NCBI RefSeq assembly: GCF_024494645.1
Contig: NZ_JANHDJ010000001.1
Coordinates: 682,001 to 746,000, forward strand
Length of the DNA stretch: 64,000 bases
From: Halohasta litorea
Lineage (GTDB): Archaea; Halobacteriota; Halobacteria; Halobacteriales; Haloferacaceae
Direction of reading: 5' to 3'
A model generated the notes under the pieces. It did no database searches. It was given only the letters and a program-made list of their open reading frames with translations, and was not told the origin of the DNA. Numbering within the stretch: position 1 is the stretch's first letter; each line of letters begins with the position of its first letter. Shown here piece by piece: positions 5,870 to 42,191 of the stretch. Position numbers and translations under genes: made by a program.

Positions 5870-6373
5870 ATGGCGCGTTCCGACGAGGAGGTGCTCGACG
5901 AGATCGTCGACGAGGATATTCGCAGTGATGAGACGGCCGCCGATCGATCGGCTCCTGACACCGAAGCCGCCGACACCAGCGACGACGCCGCTGGCCGACT
6001 CGGGGGGCTGTTTTCGCTCAAGGCCTTCCTGTTGTCGGCGGCGCTGATCGCCGTCGGTGTCGGCGGCGGCGGGGCGATCCCGATCGTCGGCACCCTCGGC
6101 TCGCTGGGTGGGCTGTTCGTCGCCACCTTCGTCGTCGGCCTCGTGGCCGCCGAACGCCGGTATCTCGAAACCGCGGTCGCCGGGGGCCTCATCGTCGGGG
6201 CGAGCTTCGCACTGAGCCTGCTGTCGACCGGGGTCCTGCCGGTCGGCATGCGCTTCTTCAGAGAGTACGGCCTCGCTTTCGGTGGGGTCGGCGTCGGTAT
6301 CGGGGCCGTACTCGCCGTCGTCGGTCACTACTTCGGCCGCGATCTCCGTGACGGTCTGACCCAAGAGATCTGA
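5870..6373 (+). CDS. Acidic-tailed multi-helix membrane protein, 167 aa
   Basis: 167 residues. The first 45 are acidic and Ser/Asp-rich, typical of a cytosolic haloarchaeal extension. About four glycine-rich hydrophobic helices follow (residues 50-150), including IAVGVGGGGAIPIVGTLG. ATG 5870 is chosen because it begins this acidic tail and lies about 100 bases from the divergent gatD start. It resembles small haloarchaeal membrane proteins of unknown function; I cannot assign a role. Its stop is 1 base from the stop of the convergent ArsR-type gene. Confidence 0.7.
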   Translation: MARSDEEVLDEIVDEDIRSDETAADRSAPDTEAADTSDDAAGRLGGLFSLKAFLLSAALIAVGVGGGGAIPIVGTLGSLGGLFVATFVVGLVAAERRYLETAVAGGLIVGASFALSLLSTGVLPVGMRFFREYGLAFGGVGVGIGAVLAVVGHYFGRDLRDGLTQEI

Positions 6374-6374
6374 G

Positions 6375-7067
6375 TCACCGAATACGCCACTGGCCGTCGT
6401 CGTAACTGAGTATTCCTGCATCGGCGAGCCGACTGAGCGCCTGATCGACGGCCTCCGGTGGGGCAGTTAGTGCGGCTTCGACCGCCTCGGTCGAGCCGTC
6501 GGTATCGACGATGGCGGCCAGTATCTTGGCGTAGAACTGGCAGTCGGCGTCGATCCCGGTGCGTTCGGTCAGCTCGTCAAGTGTTTCGGTGAGCCGCCCG
6601 TGGACCCATCGCTGGGCCAGCGACAGCTCCCGATCCAGCGACTGGAGCCGCCCGAACTCCGCGGCGAGCTCCTCGATATCGCTCCGGTCGCTCTCGGCGG
6701 CGTCGTGTTCGGCCTCGCTGCTCCCGTTCGTGGCGACCCCGTCGAGAGAGAGATGCGGACAGCGGCCGGACATATCCAGGGTCGAACTGGCCGGATAGGC
6801 GCTTTTCGCGCCGAACCCGTGGGGCGAGACGTCGACCTCCAGCCGGAGGCTTCGAGTGATATTGAAGTATTTCCGGCGCTGGTCGTCGGTTCGACTCTCG
6901 ATCAACCCCGCCTCCTCCAGTTTGCGGAGGTGGTCGATGACCGCCTTCGGACTCACGCCGAGATATTCACTAATCTCGGTGACATAACAGGGCTTCTGCG
7001 AGAGTAGTCGAAGAATCCGTCGACGGTTCTCGTTGCCGAGGAGATCCAAGAGTACCGCCGAATCCAT
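6375..7067 (-). CDS. ArsR-family winged-helix transcriptional regulator
   Basis: 230 residues. The N-terminal 70 form an ArsR-type winged helix: LLGNENRRRILRLLSQKPCY, the recognition helix in YLGVSPKAVIDHLRKLEEAG and the wing around SRTDDQRRKYFNI. The middle has a Ser/Asp-rich linker and a coiled-coil-like helix (about 135-165). A second winged-helix-like segment (AILAAIVDTDGSTEAVEAAL to DDGQWRIR) forms the C-terminus. No conserved metal-binding Cys pair (CxCxxC) is seen, so a non-metal signal is likely. Target genes are unknown. Confidence 0.82.
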   Translation of the reverse strand: MDSAVLLDLLGNENRRRILRLLSQKPCYVTEISEYLGVSPKAVIDHLRKLEEAGLIESRTDDQRRKYFNITRSLRLEVDVSPHGFGAKSAYPASSTLDMSGRCPHLSLDGVATNGSSEAEHDAAESDRSDIEELAAEFGRLQSLDRELSLAQRWVHGRLTETLDELTERTGIDADCQFYAKILAAIVDTDGSTEAVEAALTAPPEAVDQALSRLADAGILSYDDGQWRIR

Positions 7068-14595: not shown

Positions 14596-16845
14596 CTACT
14601 CTTGCTGTGCGTCGACAACGGCCACGCCCGCGAGGTTGACGATGTCTTTGACCTCGTCGCCGCGCTGGAGGACGTGGACCGGTTTGTCCATCCCAACCAA
14701 CATTGGCCCGATCGCCTCCGCGCCGCCGAGCCGCTGGAGCAGTTTGTAGCCGATATTACCCGATTCGAGGTTCGGGAAAATCAACACGTTCGCTGGACCG
14801 TCGAGTTCGGAAAAGCCGTAGGTGTTGTCGATGATCTCCTCGACGACGGCGGTGTCGGCCTGCATCTCGCCGTCGACGGCGAAGTCGACCGCCGAATCAC
14901 TGTGGAGGTCTGACACGGCCTGTCGAATGGTCGCCGTCGACTCGTTTCTGACGCTGCCGAAATTGGAGTACGACAGCATCGCCGCTCGCGGCTCGACGTT
15001 GAAACTCCGGGCCAACTCGGCGGTGTGTTTGGTGACCTCCGCGAGCACCTCGGCGTCGGGGTCCTGGTTGACGGTCGTATCCGCACAGAAGACCACCTTG
15101 TTTTTGAATGTCATCAGGTAGACACCGGCGGCGTAGTCGGCGTCCTCGGCGGTGCCGATCACCTGCAGCGGTGGCCGCAACGCGGAGGGATAGTGGTGGG
15201 TCAGCCCGGTCAGCATCGCGTCGGCATCACCCATCTCGACCATCACGCTGCCGAGGTAGTTGGTGTCCTTTTCGACGAGTTCGGCGGCTTCCCCCCGGGT
15301 GATTCCCTTCCGGCGACGGAGCTCGTAGAGCCGGTCGGCGTAGGCATCAAGGCTCCGCTCGGCGGGGTCGACGACCTCCGGCTCGAACGACAGCCCCAAC
15401 TGCGAGGCGATGCGGGTGATTTCCTCGTGGTCTCCCAGCAGGATCGGTTCGGCAATTCCTTCTTCCTCCAGCTGGTAGGCCGCCCGAATCATTTTTTCGT
15501 CGGTGCCCTCAGCGAGCGCAAGCCGCTTGGGGTCGCTTTTGGCCTTGTTGAGGACCACGCGCATCATTTCGCGGGATTTGCCGAGTCTGGCTTCGAGGGT
15601 CTCAGCGTAGGTTTCGATATCGATCTCGGTTCTGGCGACACCGCTTTCGACCGCGGCCTCGGCAACTGCGGGCGCAACCTCAAAGAGGACGCGGGGATCA
15701 AGCGGTTTCGGGATCACGTAGTCGGGGCCGAACTGGAGTGGCTGGTCGCCGTAGGCTTTGACTACTGCGTCCGGAACGTCCTGTTTGGCCAGATCCGCCA
15801 GCGCCATCGCCGCCGCACGTTTCATTTCCTCGTTGATGTCGGTCGCCCGTACGTCGAGCGCACCGCGGAAAATAAACGGGAATCCAAGGACGTTGTTGAC
15901 CATATTGGGGTAGTCCGACCGCCCCGTCGCGACGATCACGTCGTCCTCGCGGGCGGCTTTGGCGTCCTCGTAGCTGATCTCGGGGTCGGGATTGGCCATC
16001 GCGAAGATGATCGGGTTGTCGGCCATCGACTGGACCATCTCCTGTGAGACGATCCCGCCGACCGAGAGACCGACAAACACGTCGGCGTCCTCCATCGCAT
16101 CCGCGAGGCTCCCGTCGTCGACATCGCGGGCGAACTGCTGTTTGTACTCGTTGAGCTCGTCGCCCCGGTCGGTCGTGATGATCCCCGAGGAGTCACACAT
16201 CGTGATGTTGGACTCCTCTGCGCCGAGCGAGACATAGAACTGCGCGGTGGCGAGCGCCGACGCGCCCGCGCCCGAAAAGACGATATCGAGCTCGTCGAGG
16301 GATTTGCCGGTGATGTCGGCGGCGTTGAGCAGGGCAGCCCCCGAGATGATCGCCGTCCCGTGTTGGTCGTCGTGGAAGACTGGAATGTCCATCCGCTCGC
16401 CGAGCCGTCGCTCGATCTCGAAGCATTCGGGGGCTTTGATGTCTTCGAGGTTGATGCCACCGAAGGTCGGCTCCATGGCGGCGACCGTCTCGACAAGCGC
16501 GTCGGGGTCGTCGAGTTCGAGTTCGATATCGAAGACGTCGATATCCGCGAACCGCTTGAAGAGGACGCCCTTGCCCTCCATGACGGGTTTGGAGGCCTGT
16601 GCGCCGATGTCTCCGAGCCCGAGGACGGCCGAGCCGTTGGAGACGACGCCGACGAGGTTGGATTTGGCCGTGTAGTTGTAGGCCTGGTCCGGATCGTCGT
16701 CGATATCCAGACAGGGCGCGGCGACACCCGGCGAGTAGGCGAGGCTCAGATCCCGCTGGGTGTTGGTCGGTTTCGTCGTCGCGATCTCGATTTTGCCCGG
16801 TGGATCACGCCGGTGATACTCCCGTGCGTCGTCGTCGAGTCCCAT
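14596..16845 (-). CDS. maeB: NADP-dependent malic enzyme with C-terminal phosphotransacetylase-like domain (MaeB)
   Basis: 749 residues. The N-terminal malic enzyme domains (about 1-420) oxidatively decarboxylate malate to pyruvate: [28 protein letters not shown], the metal site in FHDDQHGTA, the nucleotide fold [14 protein letters not shown] and [10 protein letters not shown]. The C-terminal 320 residues are phosphotransacetylase-like ([53 protein letters not shown]). In bacterial MaeB this domain is regulatory, binding acetyl-CoA. The open frame continues upstream but [20 protein letters not shown] is the family start, so ATG 16845 is chosen. Confidence 0.93.
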
Positions 16846-16931
16846 ACCACAGCGGTTCGGTGGACACCTGAAAAAGGTGTGTGTGCGTCGATTGTCAGAT
16901 TCGACGACTGTCGAACTCGGTGCGCTTGCTA

Positions 16932-17972
16932 TCAGGTCGGGTTCGCCGTCGTCTCGGTGTCGACATCGACAGGTAGCAATCGGAGTTCCTCGTCGGCGGC
17001 TCCGAGGACCGACAGTTCGTAGCTGAAGACATACGTCAGGACGACGATCTTGATCGGTAGATAGCAGACGGTCGCTACAACCACTGTCAGCAGCACGATC
17101 GCACCGAGTGCGATCACACCAACTGTCGACGCAAGCGCTGCGTTGAGTCCGCCGAAGACGCCGAGGACTACCAGCAGCCCGCCGAGGGCACCGACGGTGC
17201 CGATGATGCCGAAGACGATGGCCGCGAGGATCGTCTGGCCGATCGAAATCGCCAACAGCAGCAGGAAGTGGACGACGACATAGACGCCGAACTGAGCGAG
17301 ATCGTTCCGGACGACCGGCCAGAACCGACGCCACGCGGAGAGCACGCCGCTGTCGGTCTTGACCATTATCGGCGCAACGAACTCGTTTGTCACACGGCTG
17401 ATTATCAGATACCCGATAAACCACAGCACGAGACACACCGCAAGCAGCGCTCCACCGACCAGCAGCGCCGGACCGCCGAGGACGACTGTATCGAGCGCAA
17501 TAACAGCACCGAGAACGACGAACGGAAGCACGAAGACGACGCTGACAGTCAATTTAAATCCGAACAGTCGAACTGCCTGTCCGAACCGCCGACGGGCCGG
17601 ACCACGAATGCGCACGGTGTCCGTCCGGAGGGCGTCGTAGAGGACGAGCCGCAGTGTCTCCGAAATTAGTGTCAGCCCCAGACCGAGGATAACGACGCCT
17701 CCGATAATCGCGGCGATCAGGAGTGGGTCGATCGGGAGGGTCTCCAGCGAGAGCTCGGATGGGACTGGAGCGGGCTGTTGTGGCGTGGGTTCGGCGGGCA
17801 TATTCGCCGGAAGGCTCGCCGTGTTCGAGAGTATGGAGGCACCGCTCCCGCCAACGCCGACGAAGAACGCGATCAGTGCCAGTCGTAGCCACCGGCCGGG
17901 CTCGATGGGGAACAAGAACGACCGAGTCGTATCGATCGCCTCGTCGACGCTCTCGACGGCGTACCAAGACAT
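16932..17972 (-). CDS. Multi-pass membrane protein, 346 aa
   Basis: 346 residues with about six hydrophobic segments: PGRWLRLALIAFFVGVGGSG (residues 26-45), a Pro/Ser/Glu-rich outer loop (50-75), and further helices at about 80-105, 128-150, 155-180, 230-262 and 285-310. The N-terminus SWYAVESVDEAIDTTRSFLF is typical of a haloarchaeal family of unknown function. No transporter or enzyme motif is visible. Confidence 0.75.
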   Translation of the reverse strand: MSWYAVESVDEAIDTTRSFLFPIEPGRWLRLALIAFFVGVGGSGASILSNTASLPANMPAEPTPQQPAPVPSELSLETLPIDPLLIAAIIGGVVILGLGLTLISETLRLVLYDALRTDTVRIRGPARRRFGQAVRLFGFKLTVSVVFVLPFVVLGAVIALDTVVLGGPALLVGGALLAVCLVLWFIGYLIISRVTNEFVAPIMVKTDSGVLSAWRRFWPVVRNDLAQFGVYVVVHFLLLLAISIGQTILAAIVFGIIGTVGALGGLLVVLGVFGGLNAALASTVGVIALGAIVLLTVVVATVCYLPIKIVVLTYVFSYELSVLGAADEELRLLPVDVDTETTANPT

Positions 17973-18042: not shown

Positions 18043-19161
18043 TTACACTGATAACGGGACGGGACGCTGAAGGGTGAGGTCACCTTCGACAGCCGATACC
18101 GACCGCGTCGGCCACGAGTCGGTCATCGTCAGTGGCTCGGCGGTGTCGGCGGTCACCAACACCGTCCCCTCGCTTTTGGTCCCCTGTACTGTCGGGTTCC
18201 AGGCATACCCCTGTGGCGCGAGGACCGCCGATGCGTCGGTCGGTGTCGCGATCCATTCCCGGCCCGCAAAGCCCGCGGCACCGCCCTGATGGTGCTTGTG
18301 CCACTCATCGGGCCACCCAACCGCCTCGTAGGCCGATTGGATCGCACCGAAGACCTCGCCCGCAGTCGATCCCTCGCGGGCAGCCCGCTGGGTGGCCGAA
18401 AGCGCCGAGACTTCGACGCGGGCGGCCGCCTCGAACCGCTCGTCGAGCCATGCCGGGGCGTCGAAGTCGACCGTTCGCGTCGTACTCGCATACAGTCCGC
18501 CGCGCTGGGCAGTCACCGATACCAGCGCGTAGTCGCCCAGTGGGGCGGTAGTCGGTGTATAATGCCGGTACTGCTGGGCGCGCTCGCCGCCACCGACGAG
18601 CACGACCGGCGCTTCGATCCCCCGCGATTCGAGCGCGGTCCGGACGTCGACCGCCGCCGCCTGTTCGGTCTGTGTCGGGGAGAGTTCTCTGCAGACCTCC
18701 TCGACGGCGGCTGCGGTCTCCCGACCGAGCCCACGGTATCGGTCGATATCGGCGGTCGAAAGCGGCTGTCTGAGCGTCGAGAGGTCCGGTTGGACGAGTC
18801 CTGGAACGTCGAAATCGGCGGCCGCGGACGCCGGTGATTCGGCGGCGACGAACTCGGCCAGCGAGTCGGTATACCAGTCGGCGGCCGTCACGGTGAACGC
18901 TTCGGGAAGCTCCTCGTCGCGTAGTCGCGGTGCCTCGATCGTGTTCGTGAGGACGCGAAACCCCTCCGTGCGACTGTAGCCAGCTGCCGCGGCGCCGACC
19001 GCCGATGCTCGGTCGACGACGTTCGAGCCGCCGGTCAGCCACGTGAAGTTGGTGGGCCGACCCAGCCAGAGGGCGTCCATATTTCGGTCATCCAGGAACG
19101 TCGTGATTCGGGCCCGTCGCTCGCTCAACTCTTCGGCAGTCCGCCTTGACGAGGGAGACAT
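18043..19161 (-). CDS. M24-fold (creatinase/aminopeptidase-like) protein lacking metal ligands
   Basis: 372 residues from ATG 19161: N-terminal creatinase-type domain (1-140) and C-terminal pita-bread domain. In active M24 peptidases the core has D...D and H, E, E metal ligands. Here the first region reads LVSVTAQRGGLYASTTRTVD without the two Asp, and the C-terminal Glu region reads WNPTVQGTKSEGTVLV. WHKHHQGGAAG keeps the His-rich turn. So it is probably not a di-metal peptidase; creatinase shows that the fold can work without metal. The substrate is unknown. Confidence 0.85.
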   Translation of the reverse strand: MSPSSRRTAEELSERRARITTFLDDRNMDALWLGRPTNFTWLTGGSNVVDRASAVGAAAAGYSRTEGFRVLTNTIEAPRLRDEELPEAFTVTAADWYTDSLAEFVAAESPASAAADFDVPGLVQPDLSTLRQPLSTADIDRYRGLGRETAAAVEEVCRELSPTQTEQAAAVDVRTALESRGIEAPVVLVGGGERAQQYRHYTPTTAPLGDYALVSVTAQRGGLYASTTRTVDFDAPAWLDERFEAAARVEVSALSATQRAAREGSTAGEVFGAIQSAYEAVGWPDEWHKHHQGGAAGFAGREWIATPTDASAVLAPQGYAWNPTVQGTKSEGTVLVTADTAEPLTMTDSWPTRSVSAVEGDLTLQRPVPLSV

Positions 19162-19396: not shown

Positions 19397-19426
19397 ATAC
19401 AGGGTTACACACTACATCGCCTGTAT
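19397..19426 (+). promoter_or_regulatory. Inverted repeat overlapping the PadR start codon
   Basis: ATACAGG (19397-19403) and its perfect complement CCTGTAT (19420-19426) are 16 bases apart, and the right arm covers the ATG at 19425. The arrangement suits a dimeric winged-helix repressor acting on its own gene. No test of chance occurrence was made. The 235 bases before it, back to the M24 gene, show no gene. Confidence 0.4.
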
Positions 19427-19721
19427 GACTCAGATATTCGAACTGACCGGCTTCCAGCGCGACCTCCTGTACGTCATCGCAGGCTCCGACCAGCCATCCG
19501 GACAGACGATCCGCCGCGAGATGGAACAGCACGTCGACAACGTCAACCACGGGCGACTGTATCCGAACCTCGATGCGCTGGTCGAACACTCGCTGGTCGA
19601 AAAGGGGAGTCAGGACCAGCGAACCAACTACTATGAACTCACCGAGAAGGGTGACGAACTGATCGAGGACCGTCGACGGTGGGAACAACAGTACGTCTCG
19701 CCCACACAAGAGGCACAGTAG
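19425..19721 (+). CDS. PadR-family transcriptional regulator
   Basis: 98 residues with the PadR winged helix: LTGFQRDLLYVIAGSDQPSG, QTIRREMEQHVDNVNHGRLY, PNLDALVEHSLVEKGSQDQR and TNYYELTEKGDELI, where NHGRLYPNLDxLVExxLVEK is the recognition helix and start of the wing. No long C-terminal dimerisation helix follows, as in the short PadR subtype. It lies directly upstream of heme A synthase (58-base gap, same strand). A second, clearly related PadR gene lies at 21353-21628. Confidence 0.88.
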   Translation: MTQIFELTGFQRDLLYVIAGSDQPSGQTIRREMEQHVDNVNHGRLYPNLDALVEHSLVEKGSQDQRTNYYELTEKGDELIEDRRRWEQQYVSPTQEAQ

Positions 19722-19779: not shown

Positions 19780-20646
19780 ATGACCGACCGCCTCGATTGG
19801 CTGTCTTTTCGTCGGTTCGCGGCGTTTACGACCGCCCTTACGTTGTCGCTGATCACCCTCGGTGTGTACACCGCAGCGACGGGTTCGGGACTGGCGTGTC
19901 AGGCACAGTGGCCGCTGTGTTCGGACCAACTGATCCCTGCGCTGACGATCAATCCGGATTTCATTGAGTGGTTCCACCGGGTCGTCGCAATGATTACGGG
20001 CTTTTTCATCCTCGGTACGGCTGGCTGGGCCTGGAAACGCGGCGACCGGCGGAGCAGGCTCGCCTCGACGCTCGCGGTAGTACTGCTCCCGCTGCAGATC
20101 ACTGTCGGGGCGATCACGGTAACGATCGGTGGCCTGGTTCCTGGAGGCTACTCGCCGCCGACCCACGCCGCTCATCTCGTCGTCGCGCTGACGATCTTTA
20201 CGTTGTTGACGCTGACAACGCTGTTTGCTTTCCGGCAGCACCACCGACGGCCGCCACGGGCTCGGAGCCGACTCGCCGTCGGTGTCGCGCTCGGAGCACT
20301 GCTCGTCAGTGGCCTGTTCAGTCGTGGCGTGCCGCTGTTGAACTACTCGCCGGGCGCACAGGCGTGGTATTATGCGGTATCGCTCGTCGCTATCGGCGCG
20401 CTGCTCGCGGCGACGTTCTGGCTCTCGACGGCCGACCGGGTCGGCGCGTGGCTGGCTGGCGGCGCACTTGTGGTTCTGTTCGGGGCGATGCTTCTCGGGC
20501 GGGATCTAGTGCTCTACACCGCTGCAGTCCAGCGTCTCAACTTCGCGTTGTACTTCCTCGCGGTCGGTATCGTTGCCGCTGTTGGCTGGCGACTTCGGAG
20601 CAACGTTGAATCGGTTCCGACGGGACAGTCGACGAGCAGCAACTGA
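19780..20646 (+). CDS. ctaA: Heme A synthase (COX15/CtaA family)
   Basis: 288 residues with about eight membrane helices. CtaA oxidises heme O to heme A for cytochrome oxidase. Visible features are the external Cys pair in GLACQAQWPLCSDQL (about 45-59), the heme-binding His in EWFHRVVAMITGF (about 73-85), and the second His pair in PPTHAAHLVVALT. The second half has fewer His residues than in Bacillus CtaA, as in archaeal versions. The start MTDRLDWLSFRRFAAFTTAL places the first helix correctly. Confidence 0.88.
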   Translation: MTDRLDWLSFRRFAAFTTALTLSLITLGVYTAATGSGLACQAQWPLCSDQLIPALTINPDFIEWFHRVVAMITGFFILGTAGWAWKRGDRRSRLASTLAVVLLPLQITVGAITVTIGGLVPGGYSPPTHAAHLVVALTIFTLLTLTTLFAFRQHHRRPPRARSRLAVGVALGALLVSGLFSRGVPLLNYSPGAQAWYYAVSLVAIGALLAATFWLSTADRVGAWLAGGALVVLFGAMLLGRDLVLYTAAVQRLNFALYFLAVGIVAAVGWRLRSNVESVPTGQSTSSN

Positions 20647-20866: not shown

Positions 20867-21228
20867 AACCCTGTTTGCGATGATCGTTACTGACGTTCGT
20901 GCCAGTAGAGTGATATTTGGTGTGTCAGGTCTGTTTCAAGTAGTCGCTCACGTTGTTCGCCGAAGCGGCACCCGCTTCGAGCTGTCGTTCACGGTGTTCA
21001 CGACAACGTAGGAAAACGGGTTGGACGCGATTTGAACACTCACTCGCTCACTACGTTCGCTCGCTGCGTTCAAATACGCGTAACGTTTTCACTACTCACG
21101 TTGTTCGCAGGAAAACGGGCTGGACGCGATTTGAACACTCAGTCACTCCACTCGCTGCGCTCGGTTCGTTCCTTGCATTCAAATCGCTGTAACCGCATTG
21201 CTCCTCGCGGTAGTGCTCGGAGCAAAAG
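20867..21228. other. 362-base gene-free stretch with low-complexity GCTCGC/GTTCG tracts
   Basis: No ORF here has haloarchaeal protein composition. The stretch holds repeated CTCGCT/GTTCGC-type motifs and two extra copies of the tRNA-Lys 3' end (21018-21039 and 21117-21138), listed separately. It looks like a degraded integration site rather than a gene region. Confidence 0.6.
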
Positions 21229-21251
21229 CGGGCTGGACGCGATTTGAACAC
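21018..21251. repeat. Three copies of the 22-base tRNA-Lys 3' end (possible att scars)
   Basis: GGGCTGGACGCGATTTGAAC plus AC occurs at 21117-21138 and at 21230-21251, the latter being the 3' end of tRNA-Lys on the minus strand. A copy with one change (GGGTTGG) is at 21018-21039. The copies are 99 and 113 bases apart. Archaeal integrases commonly target tRNA 3' halves and regenerate the gene, leaving 3'-end duplicates, so these are probably old attachment sites. No integrase gene is visible nearby. Confidence 0.7.
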
Positions 21252-21302
21252 GCGACCGACGGATTAAGAGTCCGTCGCTCTGCCAAACTGAGCTACCAGC
21301 CC
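21229..21302 (-). tRNA. tRNA-Lys (CTT)
   Basis: On the minus strand the acceptor stem GGGCTGG (21302-21296) pairs with CCAGCCC (21236-21230), with discriminator G at 21229. The D arm contains AGCTCAGTTTGGCAGAGC. The anticodon stem ACGGA/TCCGT encloses CTCTTAA, giving anticodon CTT (Lys). The T arm CGCGT/GCGCG-type stem encloses TTCAAAT. There is no intron and CCA is not encoded. Its 3' end is duplicated twice beyond the gene. Confidence 0.95.
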
Positions 21303-21352: not shown

Positions 21353-21628
21353 TCAGTCGGCGAGCTGACTGTCTTCCCAGCTCCGCCGGACGTCGATCTC
21401 GGTGGTCGCCTTCTCGGTCAGCGTATAGAGGTTCGTCCGCCGATCTTTCGCACTTTTTTCAACGTATCCCTTCTCGACGAGCGTATCGAGATTCGGATAC
21501 AGTCGACCGTGGTTGATCTCTTCGTCCCGGTAGTCCTGGAGGGCTTCTTTGATCGCTAACCCGTAGGGTTCCTCAGTGCCGCTGATGGTGTAGATCAGAT
21601 CACGTTGAAACCCGGTTAGATCGTACAT
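21353..21628 (-). CDS. PadR-family transcriptional regulator (second copy)
   Basis: 91 residues. It shares the whole winged-helix pattern with the protein at 19425-19721: LTGFQRDLIYTISGTEEPYG, NHGRLYPNLDTLVEKGYVEK and DRRTNLYTLTEKATTEI. The two genes face each other across ctaA and tRNA-Lys and are probably old paralogues. The stop lies 50 bases from the tRNA-Lys 5' end. Target genes are unknown; the divergent aglJ is 169 bases away. Confidence 0.88.
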   Translation of the reverse strand: MYDLTGFQRDLIYTISGTEEPYGLAIKEALQDYRDEEINHGRLYPNLDTLVEKGYVEKSAKDRRTNLYTLTEKATTEIDVRRSWEDSQLAD

Positions 21629-40770: not shown

Positions 40771-40955
40771 TGGTGTCGTTGTGGCCGCCGTGGGAGTGAA
40801 TCTTCGGGTTCACCGACGAGGCTACTGAGACGGATCTCCAGGATAGAAATATTTACTCAAAGTATAATAAATTTTCTCTACCGGCCGTGTGTGCGAGGTA
40901 TGACGCCTGTCGACGAACGACAGCACTATTTACGGCTGGGAATAGAAGCCGGAGT

Positions 40956-42191
40956 ATGGTCAGCTACGACGAACTCCACGATCCGAACGCGGAGTACACG
41001 ATGCGGGAACTCTCCGCGGAGACGATGGGTGTCACCGGCGAGCGCGGCGGCAACCGCGACGTCGAGATTACCGACGTACAGACGACGATGGTCGACGGCA
41101 ACTTCCCCTGGACGCTCGTGCGCGTCTACACCGATGCGGGCATCGTCGGCACCGGCGAAGCCTACTGGGGTGCGGGAGCGCCGGAGCTCATCGAGCGGAT
41201 GAAACCTTTTGTCATCGGTGAGAACCCCCTCGATATCGATCGAATGACCGAGCACCTCGTCCAGAAGATGTCCGGCGAGGGTTCCATCGGCGGGGTCACC
41301 GTCACCGCGATTTCGGGTATCGAGGTCGCACTCCACGATCTGGCGGGCAAGATCCTCGGCGTCCCGGCCTACCAGCTGCTGGGCGGCAAATACCGCGACA
41401 AAGTTCGGGTCTACTGTGACTGCCACACGGCCGACGAGGCCGACCCGATCGCCTGTGCCGACGAGGCCGAACGCGTCGTCGACGAACTCGGCTACGACGC
41501 CCTCAAGTTCGATCTCGACGTTCCCTCCGGCCACGAGAAGGATCGAGCGAACCGCCACCTGCGCGGCATCGAGATCGACCACAAAGTCAGCATCGTCGAG
41601 GCCGTGACCGAACGCGTCGGCTCCCGGGCTGACGTGGCCTTCGACTGCCACTGGACGTTCTCCGGTGGAAGTGCGAAACGGCTCGCCGAGGCACTCGAAC
41701 CTTACGACGTCTGGTGGCTCGAAGACCCCGTCCCGCCGGAGAACCACGACGTCCAGCGGGAGGTTACCCAGTCGACCTCTACCCCCATCGGCGTCGGCGA
41801 GAACGTCTATCGGAAACACGGTCAGCGCCGCCTGATCGAAAATCAGGCCGTCGACATCATCGCGCCGGATATGCCGAAGGTAGGCGGGATGCGCGAGACC
41901 CGGAAGATCGCCGATCTCGCCGATATGTACTACATCCCGGTGGCGATGCACAACGTCGCCTCACCGATTGCGACGATGGGGTCGGCCCACGTCGGCGCGG
42001 CGATCCCCAACTCGCTGGCCGTCGAGTACCACAGCTACGAACTCGGCTGGTGGGAGGACCTGGTCGAAGAGGACGTCATCGAGGACGGCTACATCGAGAT
42101 CCCCGAGAAACCGGGTCTCGGCGTCACCCTCGACATGGATGTCGTCGAAGAGAAGATGGTCGACGGCGAAACCCTGTTCGACGAAGCGTAA
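40956..42191 (+). CDS. gnaD: Gluconate dehydratase (enolase superfamily)
   Basis: 411 residues of the mandelate-racemase group. It is very like haloarchaeal GnaD, which dehydrates gluconate to 2-keto-3-deoxygluconate in the semi-phosphorylative Entner-Doudoroff pathway. Motifs: NFPWTLVRVYTDAGIVGTGE, ALKFDLDVPSGHEKD, metal Asp in VAFDCHW, Glu in WWLEDPVPPEN, Glu in GVGENVYRKHG, and the His in VAMHNVASPIA. ATG 40956 gives the family start MVSYDELHDPNAEYTMRELS. Xylonate dehydratase is the main alternative. A 50-base tandem repeat begins in its last codons. Confidence 0.85.
   Translation: MVSYDELHDPNAEYTMRELSAETMGVTGERGGNRDVEITDVQTTMVDGNFPWTLVRVYTDAGIVGTGEAYWGAGAPELIERMKPFVIGENPLDIDRMTEHLVQKMSGEGSIGGVTVTAISGIEVALHDLAGKILGVPAYQLLGGKYRDKVRVYCDCHTADEADPIACADEAERVVDELGYDALKFDLDVPSGHEKDRANRHLRGIEIDHKVSIVEAVTERVGSRADVAFDCHWTFSGGSAKRLAEALEPYDVWWLEDPVPPENHDVQREVTQSTSTPIGVGENVYRKHGQRRLIENQAVDIIAPDMPKVGGMRETRKIADLADMYYIPVAMHNVASPIATMGSAHVGAAIPNSLAVEYHSYELGWWEDLVEEDVIEDGYIEIPEKPGLGVTLDMDVVEEKMVDGETLFDEA

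Follow-up and report, generated by a model that had tools for sequence, protein, structure and literature searches.

The window, a 64,000-nucleotide stretch of Halohasta litorea DNA, encodes a protein of the creatinase/prolidase (M24) fold in which four of the five canonical metal ligands are replaced. The protein belongs to a family of haloarchaeal and bacterial proteins marked by the motifs HHQGG and NPxxxGxKxE, a conserved and so far unnamed subfamily of this well-known fold that is probably misannotated. The gene is present in about four fifths of the sampled haloarchaeal genomes and in xylose operons of Thermus spp., and the metallopeptidase label that it carries in plasmid records is very probably wrong. 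Our preferred, still tentative, reading is a metal-free, creatinase-like enzyme with a replacement active site that would act on a pentose-derived metabolite.

Open reading frame and predicted fold

The reading frame is uninterrupted from an ATG at position 19161 to a stop codon that ends at 18043. An alternative GTG start 48 bases upstream of the ATG would add 16 residues. An earlier sequence-only reading of this stretch had given the coordinates of the frame and several motifs, and all of them were found on the minus strand, in a product of 372 residues (Table 1).

Two Pfam domains exceed their gathering scores in the window protein, Peptidase_M24 (PF00557) at 2e-9 and Creatinase_N (PF01321) at 1.3e-4. 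The sole NCBIfam match is the prolidase PepQ model (NF040821), which scores 16.5 bits where its cut-off is 630, and the ectoine hydrolase EutD/DoeA model (TIGR02993) gave no match at E 1. Among solved sequences the closest are prolidases (1pv9: 2.6e-6 with the single sequence, 1.7e-18 with the family profile). An AlphaFold2 model made from an alignment of 44 sequences has a pLDDT of 92.1 and a pTM of 0.89. Foldseek returned 215 matches to this model at E 0.001 or better, with prolidases at the top (E 1.2e-18), and TMq values of 0.72–0.75 for creatinases and 0.68–0.71 for EutD. In VIA-align 2 the Z scores are 31.3 for the Xaa-Pro dipeptidase 5cde, 30.2 for creatinases and 29.9 for EutD (6yo9). 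Because these Z scores are nearly equal, the modelled fold alone hardly discriminates between prolidase, creatinase and EutD. By the model, a complete two-domain creatinase/prolidase fold with a pita-bread C-terminal domain is well supported. The sequence-only reading had described the fold as complete and proposed a superposition on known structures; both Pfam matches and the pLDDT of 92 agree with it, and the superposition gives a confident prolidase-like fold with creatinases at Z 30.2.

Table 1. Genes and conserved segments of the M24 locus, in window coordinates.
Feature	Position	Strand	Remark
Malic enzyme-phosphate acetyltransferase (PTA) fusion	14596..16857	-	downstream of DUF7544
DUF7544 membrane protein	16932..17972	-	next gene downstream of M24
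M24-fold gene without metal ligands, HHQGG/NPxxxGxKxE subfamily	18043..19161	-	372 aa
N322-E331 (NPTVQGTKSE)	18169..18198	-	N322 for first metal Glu; E331 sole kept ligand; K329 invariant
H290-E302 (HHQGGAAGFAGRE)	18256..18294	-	G294 for metal His; R301 for third canonical His
S215 to S226	18484..18519	-	sites of both lost Asp metal ligands
R194-P203	18553..18582	-	R194 and H200 invariant; H200 aligned with the PH-motif His of canonical M24
N-terminal domain E76..R79...E83	18913..18936	-	E76 in 156/157, R79 in 154/157
WLTGG, W41-G45	19027..19041	-	W41 in 156/157 rows, one gap
PadR-like regulator	19425..19721	+	divergent from M24 gene
COX15/CtaA gene	19780..20646	+	divergent from M24 gene

Distribution of the family

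The H. litorea genome has a single copy of the HHQGG-subfamily M24 gene. At E 1e-10 a match was found in 231 of 292 genomes sampled from the haloarchaeal class, representing 60 of 77 genera. In a sample of 60 genomes from the phylum four match, namely the window genome, one other genome from the same family and two from the same order. A search of 72,556 plasmid records with one haloarchaeal, one Pantoea, one Nostoc and one Deinococcus sequence returned 37 records per query: 12 from Pantoea, 11 from Thermus, two from cyanobacteria, one from Deinococcus and 11 from haloarchaea. The full lists from three of the queries contain identical accessions, and 30 of the 37 are among the matches listed for the fourth. 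As each of the four queries returns 37 plasmid records, the subfamily is sharply bounded at E 1e-5. A scan of genome contigs confirmed 566 relatives, of which the best 80 are all haloarchaeal; these 80 are the genome-contig loci studied here, and the bacterial relatives are drawn from plasmid records.

The 198 members obtained from these loci reduce to 157 distinct sequences, also when residues 30–350 alone are compared: 148 are haloarchaeal, including one fragment (L129), and nine are bacterial. In a quick tree of 60 rows, 12 of them paralogs, a fully supported branch sets the family off from two canonical M24 proteins and a EutD-like protein, with long outgroup branches that were flagged by the program; within the family, bacteria are separate from haloarchaea (support 89). 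The members L199, L201, L203, L205, L206 and L208 are represented in the tree by identical rows under other identifiers. The fragment L129, at 6001–7043 of a Haladaptatus salinisoli plasmid record, is an unannotated M24 copy that matches in two pieces, has a frame of 187 residues and looks broken.

A viral gene is unsupported: no match to the family was found in 50,697 phage records, and none of the 29 pattern matches in a scan of viral contigs is a relative. A Pantoea gene of the family has no DNA-level match in E. coli. Among the papers listed by literature searches none deals with the HHQGG/NPxxxGxKxE family, and a text search for the HHQGG motif had no match anywhere. The family is likewise not mentioned in the available parts of texts on pentose metabolism and haloarchaeal biology (including PMC5292009 and PMC8551123) or on ectoine (PMC3187862).

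Replacement of the metal ligands

We take the positions D, D, H, E and E of M24 proteins to be their metal ligands. Two concordant alignments, of the family profile with the Pyrococcus furiosus prolidase (1pv9) and, by MAFFT, of the family with two canonical M24 proteins that H. litorea itself encodes (L137 and L138), place S215, S226, G294, N322 and E331 at these positions, and E331 alone is kept. The five ligands that mark an M24 metallopeptidase thus read S, S, G, N, E, and the same pattern was found across the family. Within the canonical HxxGHGxG stretch, the first His corresponds to H290, the metal-binding His to G294 and the third His to R301, and H200 stands at the PH-motif His. M24 enzymes in general have a binuclear centre with conserved ligands, according to the accessible text of PMC4108388.

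The loss of both Asp ligands had been noted in the sequence-only reading and holds for the whole family. Asp occurs in none of the 157 relatives at either position (S in 129, T in 19, V in 8 and A in 1 at the first; S in 135, A in 16 and N in 6 at the second). The altered Glu motif noted there, with N322 for the first metal Glu and E331 kept, is invariant in the same set. The retention of HHQGG calls for a correction: the motif is present and H290 matches the first canonical His, but it is not retained as a peptidase motif, since its second Gly occupies the position of the metal His. The sequence-only reading is thus right about the missing ligands but understates the loss, which takes in four of the five.

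Invariant in all 157 relatives are R194, H200, G222, R229, H290, H291, Q292, G293, G294, R301, P307, N322, P323, K329 and E331, and W41, E76, W96 and E166 are identical in 156 of the 157, with one gap. Judged from this alignment, the ligand replacement is beyond chance, because no relative departs from G294, N322 or E331 and none has Asp at either Asp position. A degenerate pseudogene or local decay is ruled out by the invariant residues in the 157 relatives and by the presence of the gene in the 231 genomes.

An ordinary M24 metallopeptidase, as the plasmid records have it ("M24 family metallopeptidase") and as the Pfam M24 match and prolidase-like fold would allow, has in our view an almost negligible probability, with four of five ligands gone family-wide and a PepQ score of 16.5 bits against 630. 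The archaeal PepQ (1pv9) is the closest known protein by sequence profile and shares one Glu ligand and two active-site His (H200, H290) with the window protein, but in the latter the third His is replaced along with the four ligands. An ordinary prolidase was rejected on the ligand loss in the alignments and on the PepQ score below its cut-off.

The most serious rival is a rebuilt metal site, in which H200, H290 and/or H291 would bind a metal together with E331, probably as a mononuclear centre, and the protein would still be a metalloenzyme. It fits the three His and the one Glu that never vary and that occupy or adjoin positions lining the canonical site. We consider it unlikely, as four of the five old ligand positions now hold poor metal binders (S; S, A or T; G; N) and creatinase keeps comparable His and Glu residues without a metal.

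Comparison with known M24 proteins

Creatinase (creatine amidinohydrolase) is a non-peptidase member of the M24 fold whose catalysis is metal-independent. Its structures (1chm, 1kp0, 7yto) share the two-domain pita-bread fold with the model (Z 30.2, rmsd 2.8–2.9, 339–340 residues aligned), but identity to the window protein is 12–14% and the gene contexts differ; at E 0.01 the solved sequences that the family profile finds include no creatinase. We take the creatinase His equivalent to H200 to be the general acid-base and its Arg residues to hold the carboxylate of the substrate. The ectoine hydrolase EutD/DoeA (6twj, 6twk, 6yo9; TIGR02993) also combines the M24 fold with replaced canonical ligands (6yo9, Z 29.9), but its replacements differ and read E, P, L, I, E in a EutD-like protein (L131). 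The DMSP lyase DddP (4b28, 4s00) has the M24 fold (Z about 28) and a non-peptidase reaction; in contrast to the window protein, it retains the metal ligands of M24 and is an iron-binding protein, as described in the accessible part of PMC4108388.

Gene neighborhood in the window and in close relatives

The window copy sits outside any sugar cluster, and its neighbors recur in close relatives (Table 1). Among the best 80 of the 566 loci, a COX15-cluster gene lies at most two genes upstream of the M24 gene in 45, and in 20 malic enzyme is the first or second gene downstream, on the M24 strand. The latter comprise 13 of 30 loci in Haloferacaceae, 5 of 5 in Haladaptataceae and 2 of 8 for which no family is named. 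In 16 of these 80 best loci malic enzyme is the next called gene; in 15 of them it follows after 75–134 bp and in the remaining one after 1,211 bp. The order M24, DUF7544, malic enzyme recurs in some Haloferacaceae. Around eight random COX15-type loci the neighbors include ABC transporters, COX15 and malic enzyme, and arabinofuranosidase is absent from the 25 commonest of 65 Pfam families. The COX15 and malic enzyme links are conserved and give no clear functional pointer.

A second PadR-like regulator is encoded at 21353–21628 on the minus strand, beside tRNA-Lys (21228–21302), and the two PadR-like genes flank COX15. A protein of the MR/MLE group (enolase superfamily), similar to sugar-acid dehydratases, is encoded at 40887–42191 on the plus strand, about 22 kb from the M24 gene.

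Sugar genes around other relatives

In four of the 11 Thermus records, genes for a xylose ABC transporter, a ROK regulator, XylA, XylB, the M24 protein and a Gfo/Idh/MocA protein are arranged consecutively, and in three of these records an SDR gene follows. Five of the 11 records were examined, and the xyl arrangement was found in all four with a full-length M24 copy; in the fifth, a short annotated copy adjoins a sugar ABC transporter and a beta-galactosidase. The T. brockianus genome paper treats the xylose region, and in its accessible text the mentions of "peptidase" and "aminopeptidase" are not about the M24 gene (PMC5292009). In the single Deinococcus record, genes for a GntR regulator, an aldehyde dehydrogenase and the M24 protein are in a row, adjoining L-fucose isomerase, PfkB and a sugar ABC transporter. 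Two of the 12 Pantoea records were examined and show ROK, MFS, GMC oxidoreductase, M24 and SDR genes. The M24 gene of Nostoc overlaps the end of malQ; in Gloeothece a glucan glucosidase gene about 2 kb upstream is a weak sugar link.

Among the 11 haloarchaeal plasmid records, all examined, that of Natrinema thermotolerans (L126) has the COX15 arrangement and the other ten hold paralogous copies, the fragment L129 included. Arabinofuranosidase is encoded in the 6–7 kb flanks of nine of these ten, L129 among the nine, and the remaining one adjoins genes for sugar-binding-domain proteins. The ten copies are not ten independent cases, because they are confined to four clades of the tree. Eight further paralogous loci with 75 neighbors gave model matches to SDR (six), arabinofuranosidase (five), FAA hydrolase (three) and MR/MLE proteins (two); no glycosidase was found among four neighbors of the locus L209 scanned one by one. 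We take the FAH and MR/MLE proteins to be dehydratases of the haloarchaeal oxidative pentose pathway. This pathway is described in the accessible text of PMC8551123.

As a control, a random 40-kb stretch was inspected on each of six of these plasmids: three stretches are rich in sugar genes, one partly so and two are not, and none of the six has an annotated arabinofuranosidase; the plasmid gene tables are incomplete, equally for the M24 copies and for the control stretches. Because random stretches of these plasmids are often sugar-rich too, the haloarchaeal sugar context is partly plasmid background; the arabinofuranosidase link stands out.

A Gfo6-type xylose dehydrogenase marker, searched with a profile at E 1e-90, a cut-off that may admit paralogs, is present in 153 of 292 haloarchaeal genomes and 50 of 77 genera. 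By genera, both M24 and the marker occur in 46, the marker alone in 4, M24 alone in 14 and neither in 13 (Fisher p 1e-4, uncorrected for ancestry); by genomes the counts are 140, 13, 91 and 48 (p 4e-8, likewise uncorrected). This co-occurrence is supporting evidence only, and the four genera with the marker but no M24 gene and the 14 with the reverse count against the preferred reading. The contexts of the relatives together suggest pentose catabolism.

A different reading would make these contexts incidental and the protein a metal-free amidohydrolase, like creatinase or ectoine hydrolase, whose substrate would be a small nitrogenous molecule resembling an osmolyte. Bonds of this type are cleaved by known metal-free relatives, DoeA being an M24-family, creatinase-like ectoine hydrolase in the accessible part of PMC3187862; the sugar-rich background of haloarchaeal plasmids and the position of the window copy outside a sugar cluster agree with it too. 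Against this, sugar contexts recur in Thermus, Deinococcus and Pantoea, the EutD-like L131 differs at the ligand positions, and the EutD model TIGR02993 touches one of 51 family members at E 0.01 (best 0.0083), so that we find an amidohydrolase quite unlikely.

Possible function

For the preferred reading, a metal-free enzyme of pentose metabolism, we propose a replacement active site composed of R194, H200, H290-H291-Q292, R301, N322, K329 and E331. The pita-bread enzyme, probably dimeric, would use His and Glu for acid-base catalysis with no metal, like creatinase, while Arg and Lys residues would grip an anionic or strongly polar group of the substrate. An anionic substrate is suggested because R194, R301 and K329 are invariant in the alignment. 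The predicted substrate is probably a small, acidic, sugar-derived molecule, most likely a pentose-derived aldonic acid, its lactone or a keto-sugar acid; the enzyme would hydrolyse it or catalyse an elimination, and the sugar could be stacked against W41 and W96. The invariance of the polar residues across both haloarchaea and bacteria counts for this reading. Against a sugar substrate, the window copy and its close relatives adjoin COX15 and malic enzyme, not sugar genes. Because no sugar cluster surrounds the window copy, its presumptive substrate class is extrapolated from relatives.

The sequence-only reading had left a choice between a metal-free hydrolase and a binding protein. Its description as an M24 fold that lacks the peptidase metal site is well supported by the sequence, the family-wide conservation and the confident model. 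Of the two options the binding protein fares less well, because the clustered His, Glu, Lys, Arg, Gln and Asn residues never vary, which speaks for catalysis and against passive binding. A pseudoenzyme that only binds or regulates, comparable to the M24-fold domain of Spt16 or to Ebp1/PA2G4, appears highly unlikely to us. Precedents exist, as the N-terminal domains of Spt16 have the same fold (Z 25–28) and PA2G4 is termed a non-peptidase M24 pseudoenzyme in the accessible text of PMC3888471, but polar residues at the old active site that are invariant in 157 of 157 relatives fit catalysis better, and the bacterial copies lie within catabolic operons among enzymes.

With less assurance than for the metal-free enzyme itself, we speculate that the HHQGG/NPxxxGxKxE family might form a new class of pita-bread enzymes that help to break down carbohydrates without a metal. 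Such enzymes would carry out an unassigned step in the xylose operons of bacteria and the arabinose clusters of haloarchaea, and a housekeeping version would be present in most haloarchaea; the step might, for example, hydrolyse a lactone of an acid derived from a pentose, or dehydrate or isomerise such an acid. Should the sugar reading be true, a known scaffold has acquired new chemistry, and an unassigned step of pentose metabolism could be tested in two standard laboratory organisms, Thermus thermophilus HB8 (plasmid pVV8, protein WP_014677649.1) and Haloferax volcanii, where an orthologue is presumed from Haloferax relatives.

Separately, the ectoine hydrolase model has 14 listed haloarchaeal matches at about 448–481 bits, below its 613-bit cut-off, which may represent a haloarchaeal EutD variant (L131–L136). 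One of them, L131, matches DoeA structures at 3e-109.
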